DNA of 37,589 nt from Syntrophaceae bacterium (lineage in GTDB: Bacteria > Desulfobacterota > Syntrophia > Syntrophales > Smithellaceae): positions 1 through 37,589 of the forward strand of contig PLGI01000189.1 in the NCBI GenBank assembly GCA_003139775.1, given 5' to 3'. Position numbers and translations under genes: made by a program. Under the pieces are notes generated by a model. That model worked only from the letters and a program-made list of their open reading frames with translations, had not been told where the DNA came from and ran no database searches. The stretch's first letter is position 1; the number at the start of each line of letters is the position of its first letter. Of the stretch, positions 16,082-23,839 are shown one piece after another.

Positions 16082-16975
16082 TTAAAATCCTTTTATTTTG
16101 TTAAAAAGTTCCTGAACTTTTTTATTGTGCGGGTTGCGCGAAAGGATAAAATTAAGACGTTTGATTATATCTTCAATATTTACAATATTAGGATTTTTCA
16201 AGAATAATGAAAAATGAGCATTAGCCAAATTAAAGTTAGTTTCTTCGTTAAAAGGGTCAACGCTAAGAGCTTTGCGATAAGTAGATATAGCTTGTATAAC
16301 ATTATTAGTTATTTCATAAACAGAACCCAAATCGTTCCATGCATCAGTGTTTTTCGGTTCCAATTTTAAAACATTTTGGAAACTTTTTAAAGCTTTCGCA
16401 TAATCTCCGTCTTGAAAATAAATTCTGCCCAAATTGTGAAGAGCTTTCGTATGTTTCGGATTAATCTCAATAATATTTTCATATTCTTCCGCCGCTTCAT
16501 CATACATGTCGTGCTTATCATACAAGGTCGCTAAGCAAAAATGAGGCTCAACGGCTTGCGGATCGATCCCAATAGCCTTTTTGTATTGATCTACAGCATG
16601 GTGATAATCAATCTGCAATTCTAATATATGCCCGATTTTGATAATTGCTTCAATGTTGTCATCTTTTATTTTTAAGGCTTTTTCGTAGCATTTTTTTGCA
16701 GAATCAAACATATCCATTTTTTCATAGATATATCCGAGATTTATAAAATTTTTAGCATTATCTGGTTGTAGTTCTGTAATTTTTTGAAAACATTCTAAAG
16801 CCTCATCATAATCTTTATTCTCCAGATACATGAAACCAGAATTGGTGTAATCCTCAATGGAATTTGTGTCTTTTTCAATATTTTTTTTACGATTGGCGAT
16901 GGTCAGTTTGTTATTGACCGGATAAACGTTATAAGGCTTTTGAGGTGTTTTTTTTTCTAAAAATTCTTTATTCAT
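16082..16975 (-). CDS. Tetratricopeptide repeat protein
   Basis: A 297-residue protein made almost wholly of TPRs. A polar lead of about 40 residues precedes six to seven 34-residue units between about 41 and 275, with the usual spacing of A, L/Y, G and P (such as ALHNLGRIYFQDGDYAKALK). No signal peptide or membrane segment is visible, so a cytoplasmic adaptor is likely. The ATG lies 4 bases after the stop of the upstream AAA ATPase gene and has no own ribosome binding site, which indicates translational coupling and probably a joint function. The partner cannot be named from sequence. Confidence 0.85.
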   Translation of the reverse strand: MNKEFLEKKTPQKPYNVYPVNNKLTIANRKKNIEKDTNSIEDYTNSGFMYLENKDYDEALECFQKITELQPDNAKNFINLGYIYEKMDMFDSAKKCYEKALKIKDDNIEAIIKIGHILELQIDYHHAVDQYKKAIGIDPQAVEPHFCLATLYDKHDMYDEAAEEYENIIEINPKHTKALHNLGRIYFQDGDYAKALKSFQNVLKLEPKNTDAWNDLGSVYEITNNVIQAISTYRKALSVDPFNEETNFNLANAHFSLFLKNPNIVNIEDIIKRLNFILSRNPHNKKVQELFNKIKGF

Positions 16976-16979
16976 GGTT

Positions 16980-18926
16980 TTATATTGAAGTCATTGTCGC
17001 GTCTGTATTTGAGGATCTATTGAATTTCTTTAAAATCACATTTTTGACTTCAAACCATATAGCAACCGGATCAGAAAGCGATGACTTCATTATGTGCGGA
17101 TTTTCTTTAATGATTTGTGCTGACCAATATCCCGCCAATTTGTTTTTGTTTTCAGAACTTGCCAATTGCGCTTGTCTTATAACATGAGCAGGAATAGATA
17201 GCTTAACCTTCTGCTGGCCAATTAATACTTCTTCGTAAACTTCTTTCTCAACTTGTGCTGGCTGTTCTTCCTTTTCTTTTTGTTTTGCTTCAATAGGTCT
17301 AGCTTCTTCCCGTCTAGGGGGAATATTAGTTGCAGAAGGTTTTGCCAGGGGTACACCCCCCGGAATAGGAACATAATTTACAGCAGGTTTTGCCAAGGGT
17401 ACCGCTTTTGTTTCAACGCGGATAGTTTCTTCCCGTTGAGGCGGAATAGGCGTTGCAGGAGCCTGCTCCGGGATTACCATTCTTGGTTGAACAGGTCTAG
17501 CTTCTTCCATTTGAGGCGGAATAGGCGCTGCAGGAGGCGGTTCCGGTATTACCACTCTTGGTTGAGGAGGTAAAGCTTCTTCCCTTTGAGGTGTAATAGG
17601 CGCTACGGGAGGCGGTTCCGGTATTACCACTCTTGGTTGAACAGGAATAGCTTCTTCCTGTTGAGGCGGAATAGGCGTTGCAGGAGGCTGTTCCGGGATT
17701 ACCATTCTTGGTTGAACAGGTCTAGCTTCTTCCCGTTGAGGAGGAATAGGCGTTGCAGGAGGCTGTTCCGGGATTACAACTCTTGCTTCAACAGGAATAG
17801 CTTCTTCCATTTGAGGCGGAATAGGCGCTGCAGGAGGAGGTTCCGGTATTACCACTCGTGGTTGAGGAGGTAAAGCTTCTTCCTTTTGAGGCGTAATAGG
17901 CGCTACGGGAGGCGGTTCCGGTATTACCACTCTTGGTTGAGGAGGAATATCAATAGGTGGTATTTCTACCTCAGGCGCTGCTTTTCTTGGAAATGAAGTC
18001 CTGGGTTTTTTCTTCGGCAATTCAGTCTCAGGTTCTGAGATAACTTCTTCTGGTGGTTCTATCTCCGGACGGCTATGAATTTTACTTTTTGGCAAAGTAG
18101 TTTTACTTATTTTCTGGAAGCGATCGGCAATCTGCGCTACAACCTCACCTGATATCGTTTGAAATTCGTTAGTTTCGCCTGCTTTCAGGCAAAGTTTACA
18201 TATTTTGTTAGTAAGGCGAGGCGTGCCATGTTCGGAAAATTCCCAGATTACAGGAATAGCGTCATCTGTGAATATTTTTCTTTGATTGCCGGCAAGCTTA
18301 AGTCTTGTTTCGACATAAGTTTTAAGAGCTTCCTCTGAAGGCAGTTTTTCTATATGGCCATAAGTGCCAATCCTTTGAAATAAATTGGCCATTTTAGGAT
18401 GTTCTAATTTCTGCGCCAGTTCAATCTGGCCGGCAAGAAGCAAGGTGAAAAGATTGCGATCGTCATCCTGCATATTGGTTAAAAGGCGCAAATCATCCAG
18501 ATTAGCGGAAGTTAAAACATTAGATTCATCAATAACAATTACAATCTTTTTACCTTGGTCGGCTGTTTCAAATAAAAGACGATTAAATATTTCCAGCAAA
18601 TCCACTTTCTTTTTTTCTTCACATTGTTTGCCGGTTATCTGGCCGATAATTTCTCTTAACAGCTGTATGAAAGAAAGGGAGGGATTGGTAATCAGGGCGA
18701 CTTTATATTTTTCCGGCTCTAATGAATCAATGATTACGCGCAGAGAAAGAGTTTTGCCTAAACCTACATCACCGAAAATAACAACAAAACATTCATTGCC
18801 TTCTTTAATAGCATAGATTGCTTCAGAAATAACATTTTCCATGGATTCATGGCAGTCAACATACATTGAAGAATCAGGAACATTATCGAAAGGTGGTTTG
18901 GTTAAATTCCAATAGTCGCAATACAT
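16980..18926 (-). CDS. ExeA-like AAA ATPase with proline-rich tandem repeats
   Basis: A 648-residue protein. Residues 1-275 form an AAA+ ATPase of the ExeA/GspA and TniB-like group: PPFDNVPD near the start, Walker A GDVGLGKT (52-59), Walker B IVIVIDE (128-134) and LLLAGQIELAQKL...LFQRIG. Residues 276-327 are a charged, proline-containing linker. Seven 25-residue proline-rich units follow (328-502), with two VPLAKP copies just after, and then a C-terminal region (about 560-648) that I do not recognise (starting near VLIGQQKVKLSIP). There is no membrane helix or peptidoglycan-binding domain, unlike classical ExeA. A strong GGAGAGG precedes the ATG. It sits between a DNA-binding protein and a TPR protein. 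Its role could be envelope assembly or a DNA-related ATPase. Confidence 0.85.
   Translation of the reverse strand: MYCDYWNLTKPPFDNVPDSSMYVDCHESMENVISEAIYAIKEGNECFVVIFGDVGLGKTLSLRVIIDSLEPEKYKVALITNPSLSFIQLLREIIGQITGKQCEEKKKVDLLEIFNRLLFETADQGKKIVIVIDESNVLTSANLDDLRLLTNMQDDDRNLFTLLLAGQIELAQKLEHPKMANLFQRIGTYGHIEKLPSEEALKTYVETRLKLAGNQRKIFTDDAIPVIWEFSEHGTPRLTNKICKLCLKAGETNEFQTISGEVVAQIADRFQKISKTTLPKSKIHSRPEIEPPEEVISEPETELPKKKPRTSFPRKAAPEVEIPPIDIPPQPRVVIPEPPPVAPITPQKEEALPPQPRVVIPEPPPAAPIPPQMEEAIPVEARVVIPEQPPATPIPPQREEARPVQPRMVIPEQPPATPIPPQQEEAIPVQPRVVIPEPPPVAPITPQREEALPPQPRVVIPEPPPAAPIPPQMEEARPVQPRMVIPEQAPATPIPPQREETIRVETKAVPLAKPAVNYVPIPGGVPLAKPSATNIPPRREEARPIEAKQKEKEEQPAQVEKEVYEEVLIGQQKVKLSIPAHVIRQAQLASSENKNKLAGYWSAQIIKENPHIMKSSLSDPVAIWFEVKNVILKKFNRSSNTDATMTSI
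17421..17945 (-). repeat. Seven in-frame 75-bp tandem repeats inside the ATPase gene
   Basis: Each 75-base unit encodes 25 residues around RVVIPEPPPxxPIxPQ followed by xEEAx and P(P/V)QP. Units 1-3 resemble units 5-7 more than their neighbours (PVAPITPQ in 1 and 5, PAAPIPPQM in 2 and 6, PATPIPPQR in 3 and 7). This points to duplication of a 300-base block. Confidence 0.92.
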
Positions 18927-18996
18927 CTTTCCTCTCCTTACAACCTATTATAAAATGAAAAAATTTTATCCTTCAATATTAAATAATAAAATAAGC

Positions 18997-19749
18997 TCAT
19001 TGTTCATCATTAAGTTGGGTGACTTCCGCATCATTGCTCAAATATTCCAGAATATCTTCCAGCAAAAAGCGTCTCATTCTGCCCAGTTTGTAACTGTTCA
19101 GCTTTTTCTCATTGATAATTTTCCTCAAAAAACTCCGGCTGATTTGGAGCATTTGACAAACTTGATTGGAAGATAGCATTCTTAAAATCAAAGAATCATT
19201 AAAATGATAATTGAGAGAAATTCGGCCGTCGGGATTAAGTTTTATATCCAATGAAGGATCATTTTTTGCTCCGCTCAACAATTCTTTTATATATTCTGAT
19301 TGTTGCAGCAGCACTGATTGCTCCTTTGTCATAGTTATGGAAATAACGGAAGAGGACTTATCCATGAATTCCTCTACTATTTTATTATCGGAAAATTCGG
19401 GGTCATTATTGATGGCAATGCTGCTTATGGCAATTTCAGATGGAAGAGTATCACTCTGATTATCCGGCAGTATAATCTTAACTTCCGTTTTATTATCGGA
19501 AAATTCGGGGTAAGTATCGATGGCGATGTTACTTGTTGCAACTTCTTGTGGAAAAGTATCACTCAGATTATCCGGCATTATAAGTTTGACTTCCGTTTTA
19601 TTATCGGAAAATTCGGGGTGATTATTGATGGCGATGCTGCTTATGGCAACTTCAGATGGAAGGGTATCACTCAGATTATCCGGCAGTATAAGCTTAACTT
19701 CCGTTTGAGCGTATTCTCGCCGCCGTTTTACGATGCAGATCTTTTCCAT
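18997..19749 (-). CDS. Excisionase-type HTH protein with three tandem repeats
   Basis: A 250-residue soluble protein. A short basic start is followed by three 36-residue repeats (16-51, 52-87, 88-123) built on EVKLILPDNLSDTLPSE and ending PEFSDNK. A linker with a glutamine/leucine helix (about 137-160) comes next. Residues 192-238 form a MerR/excisionase-like helix-turn-helix: SSNQVCQMLQISRSFLRKII, then KLGRMRRFLLEDILEYL. A GGAG ribosome binding site lies before the ATG at 19749. It is first in an apparent operon with the AAA ATPase (70 bases downstream) and the TPR gene. No integrase is nearby, so a transcriptional or architectural role is as likely as excision. The repeat function is unknown. 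Confidence 0.8.
   Translation of the reverse strand: MEKICIVKRRREYAQTEVKLILPDNLSDTLPSEVAISSIAINNHPEFSDNKTEVKLIMPDNLSDTFPQEVATSNIAIDTYPEFSDNKTEVKIILPDNQSDTLPSEIAISSIAINNDPEFSDNKIVEEFMDKSSSVISITMTKEQSVLLQQSEYIKELLSGAKNDPSLDIKLNPDGRISLNYHFNDSLILRMLSSNQVCQMLQISRSFLRKIINEKKLNSYKLGRMRRFLLEDILEYLSNDAEVTQLNDEQ
19381..19704 (-). repeat. Three 108-bp tandem repeats inside the HTH gene
   Basis: Three direct repeats of 108 bases stay in frame and differ at only a modest number of positions; the segment TTTTATTATCGGAAAATTCG recurs at each junction on the plus strand. The strong base identity suggests recent expansion. Confidence 0.92.
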
Positions 19750-19953
19750 ATCACTCCAGGATAATCTTAGTTACTATTTAACAAAAAAACATTCCATATT
19801 TTAACCAGTAGTGTCAGAACCATAAAAATTTAATTTTTATACATATTTGTTTAGCTTATTTAGCAAGTAAAATCAAGATAAATTTAATATTTAAGCATTC
19901 AAGTCACCGCTGGGTTGGGCAGGGGATTAGTTAAATGTTACAATGGGAGGGGT

Positions 19954-21648
19954 TCATCTGATCCGGAGTTTTTTTTCACCAAGATATATGGGGTAAAATA
20001 CGGCCAAGAGACAAAGAAATAAAGTAAAAATAAAGGAAATAATCGACCAGATTATTTGTAGTAAAGAAAAACTCTGGCCGCGCAAATTAGCAATAAATAT
20101 GTAATACACAGGCCCGGCTTCCAGAATTATAACCAAAGCGATTAAACAAAAGCAAAGAATCATGAAAAGCAGCCCGCCAAAGCTAGTTACAACCTGTGCC
20201 GGATTTTCCGATTTAAAATCGGCATAGACAGCACCCAGGCCAATGGCCATGCCCACCACAGCAGGAACAAGACAAAATATTGTTATGGCCGATAGAGCCA
20301 TCATGAAAGGAGAAACTCGCAGCAATAAATTGGAAACAACAACTAGAACTTCCGCCAAAATTACCAATGGTATGTAATACAAAAAAAACTTAATCCAGAG
20401 GAAGTTTTTTGTAGATACCGGCGCTGCTTGAACAATCCAAAATGCTTCGCCTTCCATACTCACTGCCGGAAAAACAAAACGGGCGGCAATGGCCGTAAGC
20501 ACAAAAGCCGCCAGTCCTATATTTAAGAAAGAAAATAAATTTTGCAGGTAAATGGTTTTAATTGGCGAATTGTCCAAAGGTAAAACTGAAAAATTGTAAA
20601 GGTAAATTGCAATTAAGGCGGCCATTAGAAATAATTGCGGCCATTGTGCCGAATCCCTGAAAAAAGTTCGGATTTCCTTGACAGCAAAAGCTTTTGATTC
20701 GCGCGTGAGAAAATTTAATAAACTTTCCCAATTATAATCTTTGTATTTTACCGGCGCAAAAAGCCGCTGTGGAGTTGTCTGTGACTTTGAGAAACCCATA
20801 AAGTATGCGGCCTGAGCGGTAATGTTACTGATGAAAATAAGCATGAAGGCGCAGGTTCCGGTAAGCGCGATATTAAACAGACAGCTTTTTATTTCACCAT
20901 TGAGGGCAGCTTTAATTGCATCGGTAATCCATGTTGTGGGTAAAAGCGGCGAGTTGGGCGTTTGCATGGAATTTAAATAAAGAACAACGGAAGCAAAGCT
21001 ATCCGGATTTACCAATTGTTCCGGTCGTATTAAACGCAAAAAAAGAATAAGAAACAGTACCAAAATAACGCCCAGAATAATAAGAATTGTCCTGATTCGT
21101 CCGGCAGGCAGTATTATAGCTCCTAATAAAACTAAAATGCCGCTGAGAGCCGAAGATATAAGACACATGAGAATTATTGCGACTAAAAAGATCACATAAA
21201 AAATGATTCCCGTTTTGTAAATCAATCCGTAAGATAAAAATACCGGAAAACTGAAAGCAACAATCATCCAGGAACTGTCAAAGGTGCTGATGATCCACCG
21301 TGAAAAAAAAATATCCTTGGACGAAACCGGCAACGAATGCAGAAGCGGTAAATCCTGACTTAAATACAGATGGGAAAGGCAATTAACGATGTTGCTGAAG
21401 AGCAAAAGCGTAAAAAAAGTCATGATGAGCATCGAAATAAGTTTCATTGCTAAGATGTTGCCGAAATCCTGTACACTTTGAAAATAAAACAATACGCGAT
21501 AGAAAATTATAAAAATGCCTATCCAAAAAACAATACCAACTACGCTGTACATGAAAATACGTACCCAGCTGTTTTTTTCATTGTCCGTCCGCAAACTGTT
21601 GATGGCGGAAAGTATTCGCGGCCTTAACAGGGAAAGAATAGTATTCAT
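19954..21648 (-). CDS. ABC transporter permease (ABC-2-like exporter subunit)
   Basis: A 564-residue membrane protein with about 12-14 hydrophobic segments and few charged loops. It overlaps the ATP-binding gene upstream by 4 bases (ATGA), so the two should form one transporter in the inner membrane. The pattern resembles large ABC-2 permeases with two related halves. The substrate cannot be read from the sequence. Because ABC-2 systems mostly export, and because a periplasm-facing transglutaminase-like protein is encoded in the same operon, export or an envelope function is likely. Downstream is a 204-base gap with an AT-only palindrome (ATAAAAATT/AATTTTTAT) near 19823-19841 but no clear terminator. 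Confidence 0.82.
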   Translation of the reverse strand: MNTILSLLRPRILSAINSLRTDNEKNSWVRIFMYSVVGIVFWIGIFIIFYRVLFYFQSVQDFGNILAMKLISMLIMTFFTLLLFSNIVNCLSHLYLSQDLPLLHSLPVSSKDIFFSRWIISTFDSSWMIVAFSFPVFLSYGLIYKTGIIFYVIFLVAIILMCLISSALSGILVLLGAIILPAGRIRTILIILGVILVLFLILFLRLIRPEQLVNPDSFASVVLYLNSMQTPNSPLLPTTWITDAIKAALNGEIKSCLFNIALTGTCAFMLIFISNITAQAAYFMGFSKSQTTPQRLFAPVKYKDYNWESLLNFLTRESKAFAVKEIRTFFRDSAQWPQLFLMAALIAIYLYNFSVLPLDNSPIKTIYLQNLFSFLNIGLAAFVLTAIAARFVFPAVSMEGEAFWIVQAAPVSTKNFLWIKFFLYYIPLVILAEVLVVVSNLLLRVSPFMMALSAITIFCLVPAVVGMAIGLGAVYADFKSENPAQVVTSFGGLLFMILCFCLIALVIILEAGPVYYIFIANLRGQSFSLLQIIWSIISFIFTLFLCLLAVFYPIYLGEKKLRIR

Positions 21649-22379
21649 ATAAAAGTATTCTCTTTTATTATGGTTAGAAACACTTCTTCGAGCCTGGCTT
21701 CGCCGAGTTTTGCAATGTGCTTTAATTCATCAAGGGTACCCTGCGCCAATAGTGTACCCTTGTGGATTAAACCGATTCGATGGCACAAATCCTCAGCTAT
21801 GCTTAAAGTATGCGTGGAAATGAAGATGGTCGTTTGATTGACGGCCAGTTCTTTTAAAATATCCTTAACCATGTGCACTGCAGCCGGATCAAGGCCGACC
21901 ATTGGTTCATCAATAATCAATATTCTGGGATCATGTAACAGAGCGGAAGCAATGATGAGCCGTTGCTTCATACCGTGTGAGTAAGCCTCTATCAGCTCAT
22001 CAGCCCAATCCAAAAGCGCAAATTGCTGTAAGAGATTTTGGGCCTTTTGCAGAAATGTATCGCGTTTAACGTCGTAAAGATCAGCCGAAAAACGCAGGAA
22101 CTCCATCCCGGTGAGCTTCTCATAAAGAAAAGGCCTGTCGGGCACAAAACCGATCATTTTTTTTCCCTCGACGGGTTTTTTTGCCATATCTAATCCGCCA
22201 ATGATAATACTACCGGAGGTAGGAGCAAGAATGCCGCCCATCAGCCGAATTGTTGTAGTTTTACCGGCGCCATTGGGTCCGATAAAACCGTAAATTTCGC
22301 CGGCGGCAACATTTAAACTGAGCTTGTTTACCGCTATGGTAGTACCGTAATCTTTGGTTAGTTTGTGTAGTTCAATCAT
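21645..22379 (-). CDS. ABC transporter ATP-binding protein
   Basis: A 244-residue ATPase subunit. Walker A is GPNGAGKTT (34-42), the signature is a variant YSHGMKQRL (133-141) and Walker B is ILIIDEP (153-159), followed by VGLD and the switch His in STHT. The sequence most resembles ATPases of ABC-2 exporters (the CcmA/NatA-like group). It overlaps the transglutaminase gene before it and the permease gene after it by 4 bases each. It should power the permease encoded next to it. Confidence 0.93.
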   Translation of the reverse strand: MIELHKLTKDYGTTIAVNKLSLNVAAGEIYGFIGPNGAGKTTTIRLMGGILAPTSGSIIIGGLDMAKKPVEGKKMIGFVPDRPFLYEKLTGMEFLRFSADLYDVKRDTFLQKAQNLLQQFALLDWADELIEAYSHGMKQRLIIASALLHDPRILIIDEPMVGLDPAAVHMVKDILKELAVNQTTIFISTHTLSIAEDLCHRIGLIHKGTLLAQGTLDELKHIAKLGEARLEEVFLTIIKENTFI

Positions 22380-23839
22380 TTTATTTGCTCTAATACCTCC
22401 AGTTTGATTTTGCCCATCACGCCCATTAAGTTCATTTGTTCACCGCTATCACCGCGAACAAGTCTAATATGGGTCACATCGGCTGGAATTTGATTGAAAA
22501 CAGCATCTGCAGTGACCCATTTTCCCAAGTAAAGAACGTTCCATGCATGCCAATAAAACCGGCCATGCAGATAAACCAATCCCGCTTCCATTTGCGCCGG
22601 AATACCGGCGGCGCGCAGTAGGGCAACTGTCAGCACGGAATGCTCGTTACAATCGCCGACTTTATTTTTTAAGACCTCCAGTGCGTTGGGAACCGACAAC
22701 ACTGGTTTTTTCTCAATATTGTGGTAAACCCAGTTGACAATTTTTCTCGCTTTCTGATCAGCAGTGTCATTCGGCTTGATGATTTTATCCACCTGCGCTT
22801 TTATTTGCGGATGATCGGATTGTATAAGTGGCGCGGGTTTTAAAAAGACGGCAATTTCTTTGGGAAGATTATTATTTAAAGTTGAAGACGATGACAAGTT
22901 CTCCCTGGCGATGGTTAGAATGTTATTATGAAAGCTTTGTCTGTCGCCGTCAAGGAATAACACGCCGCTAGTACCGCCGATTTTAATTTTAATTTTGCTG
23001 AGTTTTTCCGGTTCAGTAATTTCAACATTGGAAGGAATGGAAGCAATTTGCGTAAAATCAATACTACCTTGATCAGCTATTCCTTCGTGAGCTTTTTGCG
23101 GGCTGACCTTTTCCATAGAGAGGCCAAGAATGCCTGCTTCCTTTAAAGTATCGCCCTCAAGGCTTAGCCAGGCGCAGTTTTTGGCCCCCACGAAATCAGC
23201 GCAATATTTTTTTGTTAAGATTCGTTTTTCCATGATGAGAATAATTTCATCGGCATTTCTGGTAACTTTAACCGATCGGATGGACAGTGTAGAAGGATCA
23301 AAAATGCTGAAACTGCGGGTTACATCTTTTTCCAAATTAGCGCGAAACGCGGCGTCATAAATACTGCCACTGATACGGGGAATATCTTTGAGCGGGATTT
23401 CGCTTTTTTCTTGCGCATCAGGTAAGCCGGTGAACAGGATCAGTTTGTTTTTGACCACGCGGCCATGAGCATTAAAGCGAAACAGGTTGGAGTTCAAATC
23501 AAAATTAAATGAGGAAAGAGTCATATCGGGGTTCAAATCGCCCTCAGTCAAAATATTGAGTGCCTGCGTTACTCCCATGGTATTGATCTGCATAAAAACA
23601 GTTTCATTAAAGTGGGATTTTTTTTCCAGATTGGTAGAAGTCCGGTGAACAAAACCAATCTTTTTTTTATTTTGATAGATATTCATCCAAGTATCTTGCG
23701 GACGCTGTGATTTTATACCTTGAATAGCCGCAATCGGCTCCAAATTATTCTGAAAAAATTCGAGGCGAATAAATAGCAGGATGAGAAAAGCAAACGTAAT
23801 GAACACACCCCAAACTATATTCCATTTGATTTTTTGCAT
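22376..23839 (-). CDS. Membrane-anchored transglutaminase-like protein
   Basis: A 487-residue protein with one N-terminal membrane helix (about 8-26) and the rest probably in the periplasm. The C-terminal third is a transglutaminase-like fold with the papain-type triad: C397 in VGDCNEHSVLTVALLRAAGIP, H431 in YWHAWN and D445 in WVTADAVFNQ. The middle part (about 50-300) is beta-rich and not recognised. Bacterial members are usually proteases or amidases rather than crosslinkers, so the activity is uncertain. It overlaps the ABC ATPase gene by 4 bases and heads the three-gene operon. Confidence 0.85.
   Translation of the reverse strand: MQKIKWNIVWGVFITFAFLILLFIRLEFFQNNLEPIAAIQGIKSQRPQDTWMNIYQNKKKIGFVHRTSTNLEKKSHFNETVFMQINTMGVTQALNILTEGDLNPDMTLSSFNFDLNSNLFRFNAHGRVVKNKLILFTGLPDAQEKSEIPLKDIPRISGSIYDAAFRANLEKDVTRSFSIFDPSTLSIRSVKVTRNADEIILIMEKRILTKKYCADFVGAKNCAWLSLEGDTLKEAGILGLSMEKVSPQKAHEGIADQGSIDFTQIASIPSNVEITEPEKLSKIKIKIGGTSGVLFLDGDRQSFHNNILTIARENLSSSSTLNNNLPKEIAVFLKPAPLIQSDHPQIKAQVDKIIKPNDTADQKARKIVNWVYHNIEKKPVLSVPNALEVLKNKVGDCNEHSVLTVALLRAAGIPAQMEAGLVYLHGRFYWHAWNVLYLGKWVTADAVFNQIPADVTHIRLVRGDSGEQMNLMGVMGKIKLEVLEQIK

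Follow-up and report, generated by a model that had tools for sequence, protein, structure and literature searches.

A conserved linkage of HTH, ATPase and TPR genes

The window, i.e., the whole 37,589-nucleotide stretch of contig PLGI01000189.1 from a Syntrophaceae bacterium (GTDB family Smithellaceae; assembly GCA_003139775.1), contains three minus-strand genes that code, in the order of transcription, for a protein with a helix-turn-helix (HTH) domain, an AAA+ ATPase of the ExeA-like superfamily, and a protein with tetratricopeptide repeats (TPR). The HTH and ATPase genes are separated by 70 bases, and the ATPase stop and the TPR start by 4 bases (Table 1). Comparison with other genomes shows that the three genes constitute a conserved linked unit, at the core of which stands an ExeA-like AAA+ ATPase that belongs to a family of its own and ends in an unrecognised domain. 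Hydropathy analysis detected no transmembrane helices in any of the three products, and all are therefore expected to be cytoplasmic. An earlier reading of the DNA alone (the original prediction) had noted the three minus-strand genes, their internal arrays of three 36-residue and seven 25-residue repeats, and the 4-base gap, on all of which the open reading frames (ORFs), Pfam, and Tandem Repeats Finder (TRF) agree. The trio is embedded among housekeeping genes, viz., tsaB, an M50 protease, dxr, and uppS, and psd, pssA, rsmD-like, coaD-like, ispG, and proS. As had also been predicted, neither a secretin nor an integrase was found among those flanking genes of the window for which family searches were made.

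The linkage was assessed in an order-level survey of 119 genomes and in a separate scan of 79 loci from named genomes, with adjacency counted only at loci having enough sequence (62 for the HTH side and 57 for the TPR side). Within the order, the C-terminal domain of the ATPase is present in 30 of the 119 genomes; for the HTH protein the number is 25, with one weak match among them. The genes for the two are nearly always adjacent where found. Across the named genomes, the HTH gene lies immediately 5' of a family ATPase at 55 of 62 loci, and the TPR gene immediately 3' of the ATPase at 49 of 57, being collinear in 30 and convergent in 19. That the TPR gene stays adjacent even when inverted suggests selection for the linkage itself, beyond co-transcription. 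The proposed search for the same three-gene order elsewhere in Syntrophales thus recovered it. Clustering of the neighbouring genes revealed that only the HTH, ATPase, and TPR families recur across distant lineages, whereas the other neighbours track local synteny. Within the genus, the position of the module among housekeeping genes is syntenic and stable; module-less relatives from the same family (n=7) have other genes after tsaB, with all three module genes missing there. The pairwise distances of the three proteins are correlated (r 0.70-0.87; permutation maxima <0.19), which is compatible with co-inheritance and inseparable from shared species history, as the latter alone gives the same result. 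Separately, one contig (C44 of genome G032; loci L109 and L161) carries the HTH-ATPase pair twice, with about 5 kb between the copies and a TPR gene at one of them, which suggests a duplication of the module.

The module is found in many lineages of Syntrophales and Syntrophorhabdales and in several anammox Planctomycetes, namely Kuenenia, Brocadia, Scalindua, and Anammoxibacter, where several copies lie on contigs of 50-300 kb. An identity of 62-69% suggests that anammox bacteria may have been donors or recipients in a horizontal transfer, a point that the tree leaves undecided. A Tectomicrobia locus (L201) retains all three genes with a frame-shifted ATPase, and distant HTH-ATPase pairs without the TPR gene occur in Kiritimatiellota, Nitrospirota, and other bins, the Nitrospirota contig stopping right after the ATPase. 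The 'Victivallis' case, on a 3.8-kb contig, may be a binning error.

Domain architecture of the three proteins

The HTH protein is organized as an N-terminal motif, a variable linker that houses the repeats, a middle β-α-α-β-β domain, and a C-terminal winged helix of the BldC/Xis type. Lysine 3 and arginine 10 of the N-terminal motif do not vary among 43 sequences drawn from several phyla, and the motif as a whole hardly varies, distant phyla included. A sequence search matched the winged helix to BldC (E 1.5e-4), and Foldseek (probability 1.00) matched its fold to BldC (TM 0.75) and the Xis protein of phage Pukovnik (TM 0.80). The protein thus resembles BldC and the phage excisionases in its C-terminal DNA-binding domain, but it differs from them in its additional middle domain, its near-invariant N-terminal tail, and its partnership with an ATPase gene. 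In the TPR protein, the most conserved stretch is LYDxHDM(F/Y)DEA (residues 151-161).

The AAA domain of the ATPase is 59-87% identical to that of 28 orthologues (mean 69%) and its C-terminal domain has a mean identity of 38%, as against the far more divergent linker (29% proline and 14% glutamate over residues 291-560), which indicates that both ends of the protein are constrained. No match to the C-terminal domain was recovered in Pfam or NCBIfam. Its predicted structure is a β-hairpin followed by three helices (core block pLDDT 75-92), in place of the ribbon-helix-helix fold that had been guessed and is now discarded, and comparison of this model with PDB folds gave nothing credible (best VIA-align Z 4.2; Foldseek E >1), which does not in itself prove a new fold. 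The original description of this end of the protein as unrecognised therefore stands, since neither the profile search nor the structure prediction proposed for it yielded a trustworthy match. As a separate observation, an ORF of 132 residues after tsaB in genome G062 (L122:9130-9528) encodes an intact C-terminal domain alone, with the AAA domain and the TPR gene gone; it could be either a remnant or a stand-alone version of the domain.

The repeats of the variable linkers are a different matter. Of 64 ATPase genes, 20 carry arrays, which differ in their units; full-length ATPases range from about 420 to 717 residues. Just 2 of 57 HTH genes have an array, viz., that of the window and that of its closest relative (L128). 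Hence, the repeats are lineage-specific rather than a common feature; they look like the products of replication slippage in disordered linkers, lying outside the conserved design. A functional role for the repeats was rejected for want of conservation among either set of orthologues, and the predicted 'expanding' repeats can no longer be regarded as a trait of the system.

Table 1. Features of the three-gene module and their positions in the window
Feature	Position	Strand	Basis or remarks
HTH gene, 250 aa	18997-19749	-	ORF list; Pfam HTH_17, E 4.3e-11
ATPase gene, 648 aa	16980-18926	-	ORF list; Pfam AAA_22, E 9.5e-17; ExeA-like superfamily, own clade
TPR gene, 297 aa	16082-16975	-	ORF list; Pfam TPR_1/TPR_2
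HTH-linker array, 108 nt (36 aa) x 3.0	19380-19706	-	TRF
ATPase-linker array, 75 nt (25 aa) x 6.9	17422-17940	-	TRF
HTH N-terminal motif MEKICIVKRRR (consensus MEK[IL][CS]IVKRRK)	19717-19749	-	Orthologue alignment, near-invariant
HTH_17 winged-helix domain, residues 191-238	19036-19179	-	Pfam; sequence and fold matches
ATPase AAA domain, residues 1-270	18117-18926	-	Walker A GDVGLGKT and Walker B IVIDE intact
ATPase Pro-rich variable linker, residues 271-560	17247-18116	-	Mean 18% identity to orthologues
ATPase C-terminal domain, residues 561-648 (~85 aa)	16983-17246	-	Conserved; invariant G, D-P, W
Sigma-70-type promoter candidate TTGATT-N17-TAAACA	19848-19876	-	TTGATT-N17-TAnnnT recurs 5' of HTH in many Syntrophales orthologues

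Beyond these features, the module is adjoined (19954-23839) by an operon coding for an ABC_tran_2 permease, an ABC ATPase, and a transglutaminase-like protein, which is conserved with the module in the genus only.

Relationship to other ExeA-like ATPases

In a quick maximum-likelihood tree of family members and paralogues from the same order, the 74 family ATPases form a single clade (support 100) with a stem of 2.2 changes per site, separate from the secretin-linked set and from the other ExeA-like ATPases. The same genome encodes, on contig C125, a GspA-type paralogue that falls in another clade and belongs to a type II secretion system-like locus read as gspL-M-N-C-A-B-D-E (the secretin was identified by Pfam and the remaining gsp names were read off the sequences). 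The ATPase of the window shares with ExeA/GspA the ExeA-type N-terminus and an AAA_22-type domain, and is 32% identical to this paralogue. However, it lacks the membrane helix (by hydropathy) and the peptidoglycan-binding domain (by Pfam); neither a secretin nor gspB lies in the window flanks or recurs beside its orthologues; and it has its own clade, the additional Pro-rich linker, and the unrecognised C-terminal domain. Domain content, neighbours, and tree together rule out an ordinary GspA/ExeA, and the claim that the protein is not a classical ExeA is upheld.

The best NCBIfam model for the ATPase is TIGR03015, the XrtA/PEP-CTERM ATPase, with 167 bits over residues 1-269. Both this score and those of the orthologues (153-176) lie well under the curated cut-off of 324.5, and the GspA-type paralogue scores higher (292), so the XrtA ATPase name does not apply. 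There is no exosortase in the module locus; 10 of 30 module-bearing genomes encode one at any position, as do 14 of 89 others, and we discarded an exosortase link as a requirement since two thirds of the module-bearing genomes are without one.

The nearest clade (35-38% identity) comprises ATPases encoded beside low-molecular-weight phosphatase-like genes (L124, L125, L249, and L254), which differ in being only 264-278 residues long, in lacking the linker and the C-terminal domain, and in having different neighbours. The XrtA label, which had been considered for these short relatives (L124, L125, and others), was likewise dropped, as a GspA-type protein scores higher on that model. One of the loci (L249) combines the phosphatase-like gene with short radical-SAM and PqqD-like genes, and loci of this type are possibly involved in peptide modification. 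Two closely related further ExeA-like ATPases (L004 and L005, on contigs C72 and C150 of the same genome) sit on a long branch.

Possible functions of the module

The presence of these genes side by side in dozens of distantly related bacteria makes it very probable that their products work together as one cytoplasmic machine. We tentatively propose that this is an undescribed, ATP-switched, DNA-anchored AAA+ complex with a recruiting or regulatory role. The HTH protein would bind DNA through its BldC/Xis-type winged helix, to judge from its fold and sequence, while its near-invariant MEKICIVKRRK tail may dock on the AAA domain. By analogy with related AAA+ recruiters, ATP binding would drive oligomerization of the ATPase, the long Pro-rich linker could allow the C-terminal domain to extend outward, and the TPR protein might act as an adaptor joining the assembly to a client. 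The original prediction of a DNA- or envelope-linked complex is partly supported: a DNA link belongs to the reading proposed here, and nothing was found that would tie the module to the envelope.

Several observations weigh against such a DNA-anchored complex. The HTH gene is missing from seven of the 62 loci that keep the ATPase and TPR genes (L159, L162, L170, L179, L180, L181, and L182), and tblastn found no trace of it at any of them; the TPR gene is in turn missing from most of a distant ATPase subfamily. Neither partner is thus obligatory. The prediction had conceded that independent occurrence of the genes in related genomes would undermine a separate system; as it is, only these three families recur across lineages, and the HTH gene has been lost at the loci just listed. 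Moreover, a candidate promoter element (TTGATT-N17-TAnnnT), which precedes the start of the HTH gene by about 100-240 bases in the window and many Syntrophales orthologues, has genome-wide a single further match, a partial one with three mismatches (G000:C88:5664-5690; L269), and the notion of a regulon sharing this element was abandoned, none being visible by that route.

These losses point to what is a possible, though not a likely, alternative, in which the HTH protein is solely the transcription regulator of its own operon and the ATPase and TPR proteins are the working machine, acting off DNA. At three of the seven HTH-less loci (L159, L180, and L182) a Crp/Fnr-type regulator takes its place upstream, and the conserved promoter candidate 5' of the HTH gene also favours autoregulation; together with the absence of the HTH gene from ATPase-keeping loci, this replacement is the chief weakness of the DNA-anchored complex. 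Against autoregulation, the HTH gene remains beside the ATPase gene in distant phyla, TPR-less loci included, and its N-terminal tail is conserved far above most of the protein, which would be needless for an ordinary autoregulator. In one HTH-less genus-level lineage (L106, L116, L159, L180, and L182), the Crp/Fnr-type gene precedes the ATPase gene and shares its strand. It was considered as a fourth component and rejected, being confined to a few loci with members from different subfamilies.

An accessory role in type II secretion, type IV pili, or another envelope assembly, after the manner of ExeA/GspA, appears improbable. The superfamily of the ATPase, the secretins found in most genomes of the order, and an HTH-ATPase pair of a PVC bacterium among genes that are prepilin- and PilX-like by their N-termini (L186:1203-7317) speak for it, the last leaving a slight possibility of a connection with pili. 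Conversely, the ATPase has neither the membrane helix nor the peptidoglycan domain for such a role, secretion genes do not recur beside the module loci, a GspA-type paralogue of a different clade is encoded apart from the module in a type II secretion-like locus of this genome, and in one module-bearing genome (G046, 84% complete) no secretin was found.

A domesticated transposition control pair, i.e., a TnsC/TniB-like ATPase with a target-site or excisionase-type HTH protein, seems still harder to sustain. As in TnsC/TniB systems, an AAA_22-type ATPase adjoins a small HTH gene, and it matches PHROG 296 ('DNA transposition protein', 1.1e-16); the HTH protein matches excisionase families weakly, and a Tn7-like CAST element accompanied by a MerR-type regulator is described in a published account (PMC9938897). 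Unlike those systems, the module shows no transposase, element ends, or mobility: its flanks are free of transposases and integrases, terminal inverted repeats were sought and none was convincing, and its syntenic place in the genus is fixed. No family member was found on phages, viral contigs gave one weak partial match, and plasmid matches are confined to the AAA domain and do not exceed about 35% identity, with none close. Finally, an anti-phage defence system is very unlikely: the patchy presence of the module, reaching distant phyla, would fit, and ATPase, TPR, and HTH components are combined in some defence systems, but a PADLOC search gave only weak generic matches, the module has neither a nuclease nor another toxic domain, and it occupies a stable syntenic site amid housekeeping genes in the genus.

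A literature search limited to open papers found no prior description of the module, which is a real, conserved, and apparently undescribed three-gene system combining known types of parts with one unrecognised domain. Its delineation sets apart an ATPase family that databases now pool under a generic ExeA-like model, and shows that the ExeA-like ATPases divide into several machines, just one of which adjoins a secretin. It also supplies a domain of about 85 residues without a known fold match. A bolder and rather doubtful extension would see in the module an ATP-switched machine anchored on DNA, with an AAA+ family of its own whose C-terminal domain has a new fold and with an HTH protein that docks through an invariant peptide; this machine would control a common unannotated process and has possibly been transferred horizontally as a unit. 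Were this so, the syntrophs among the Desulfobacterota would share the machine with anammox planctomycetes and with other phyla. In any case, the module offers a testable unit in the syntrophs and anammox bacteria, which are ecologically important and mostly uncultured.

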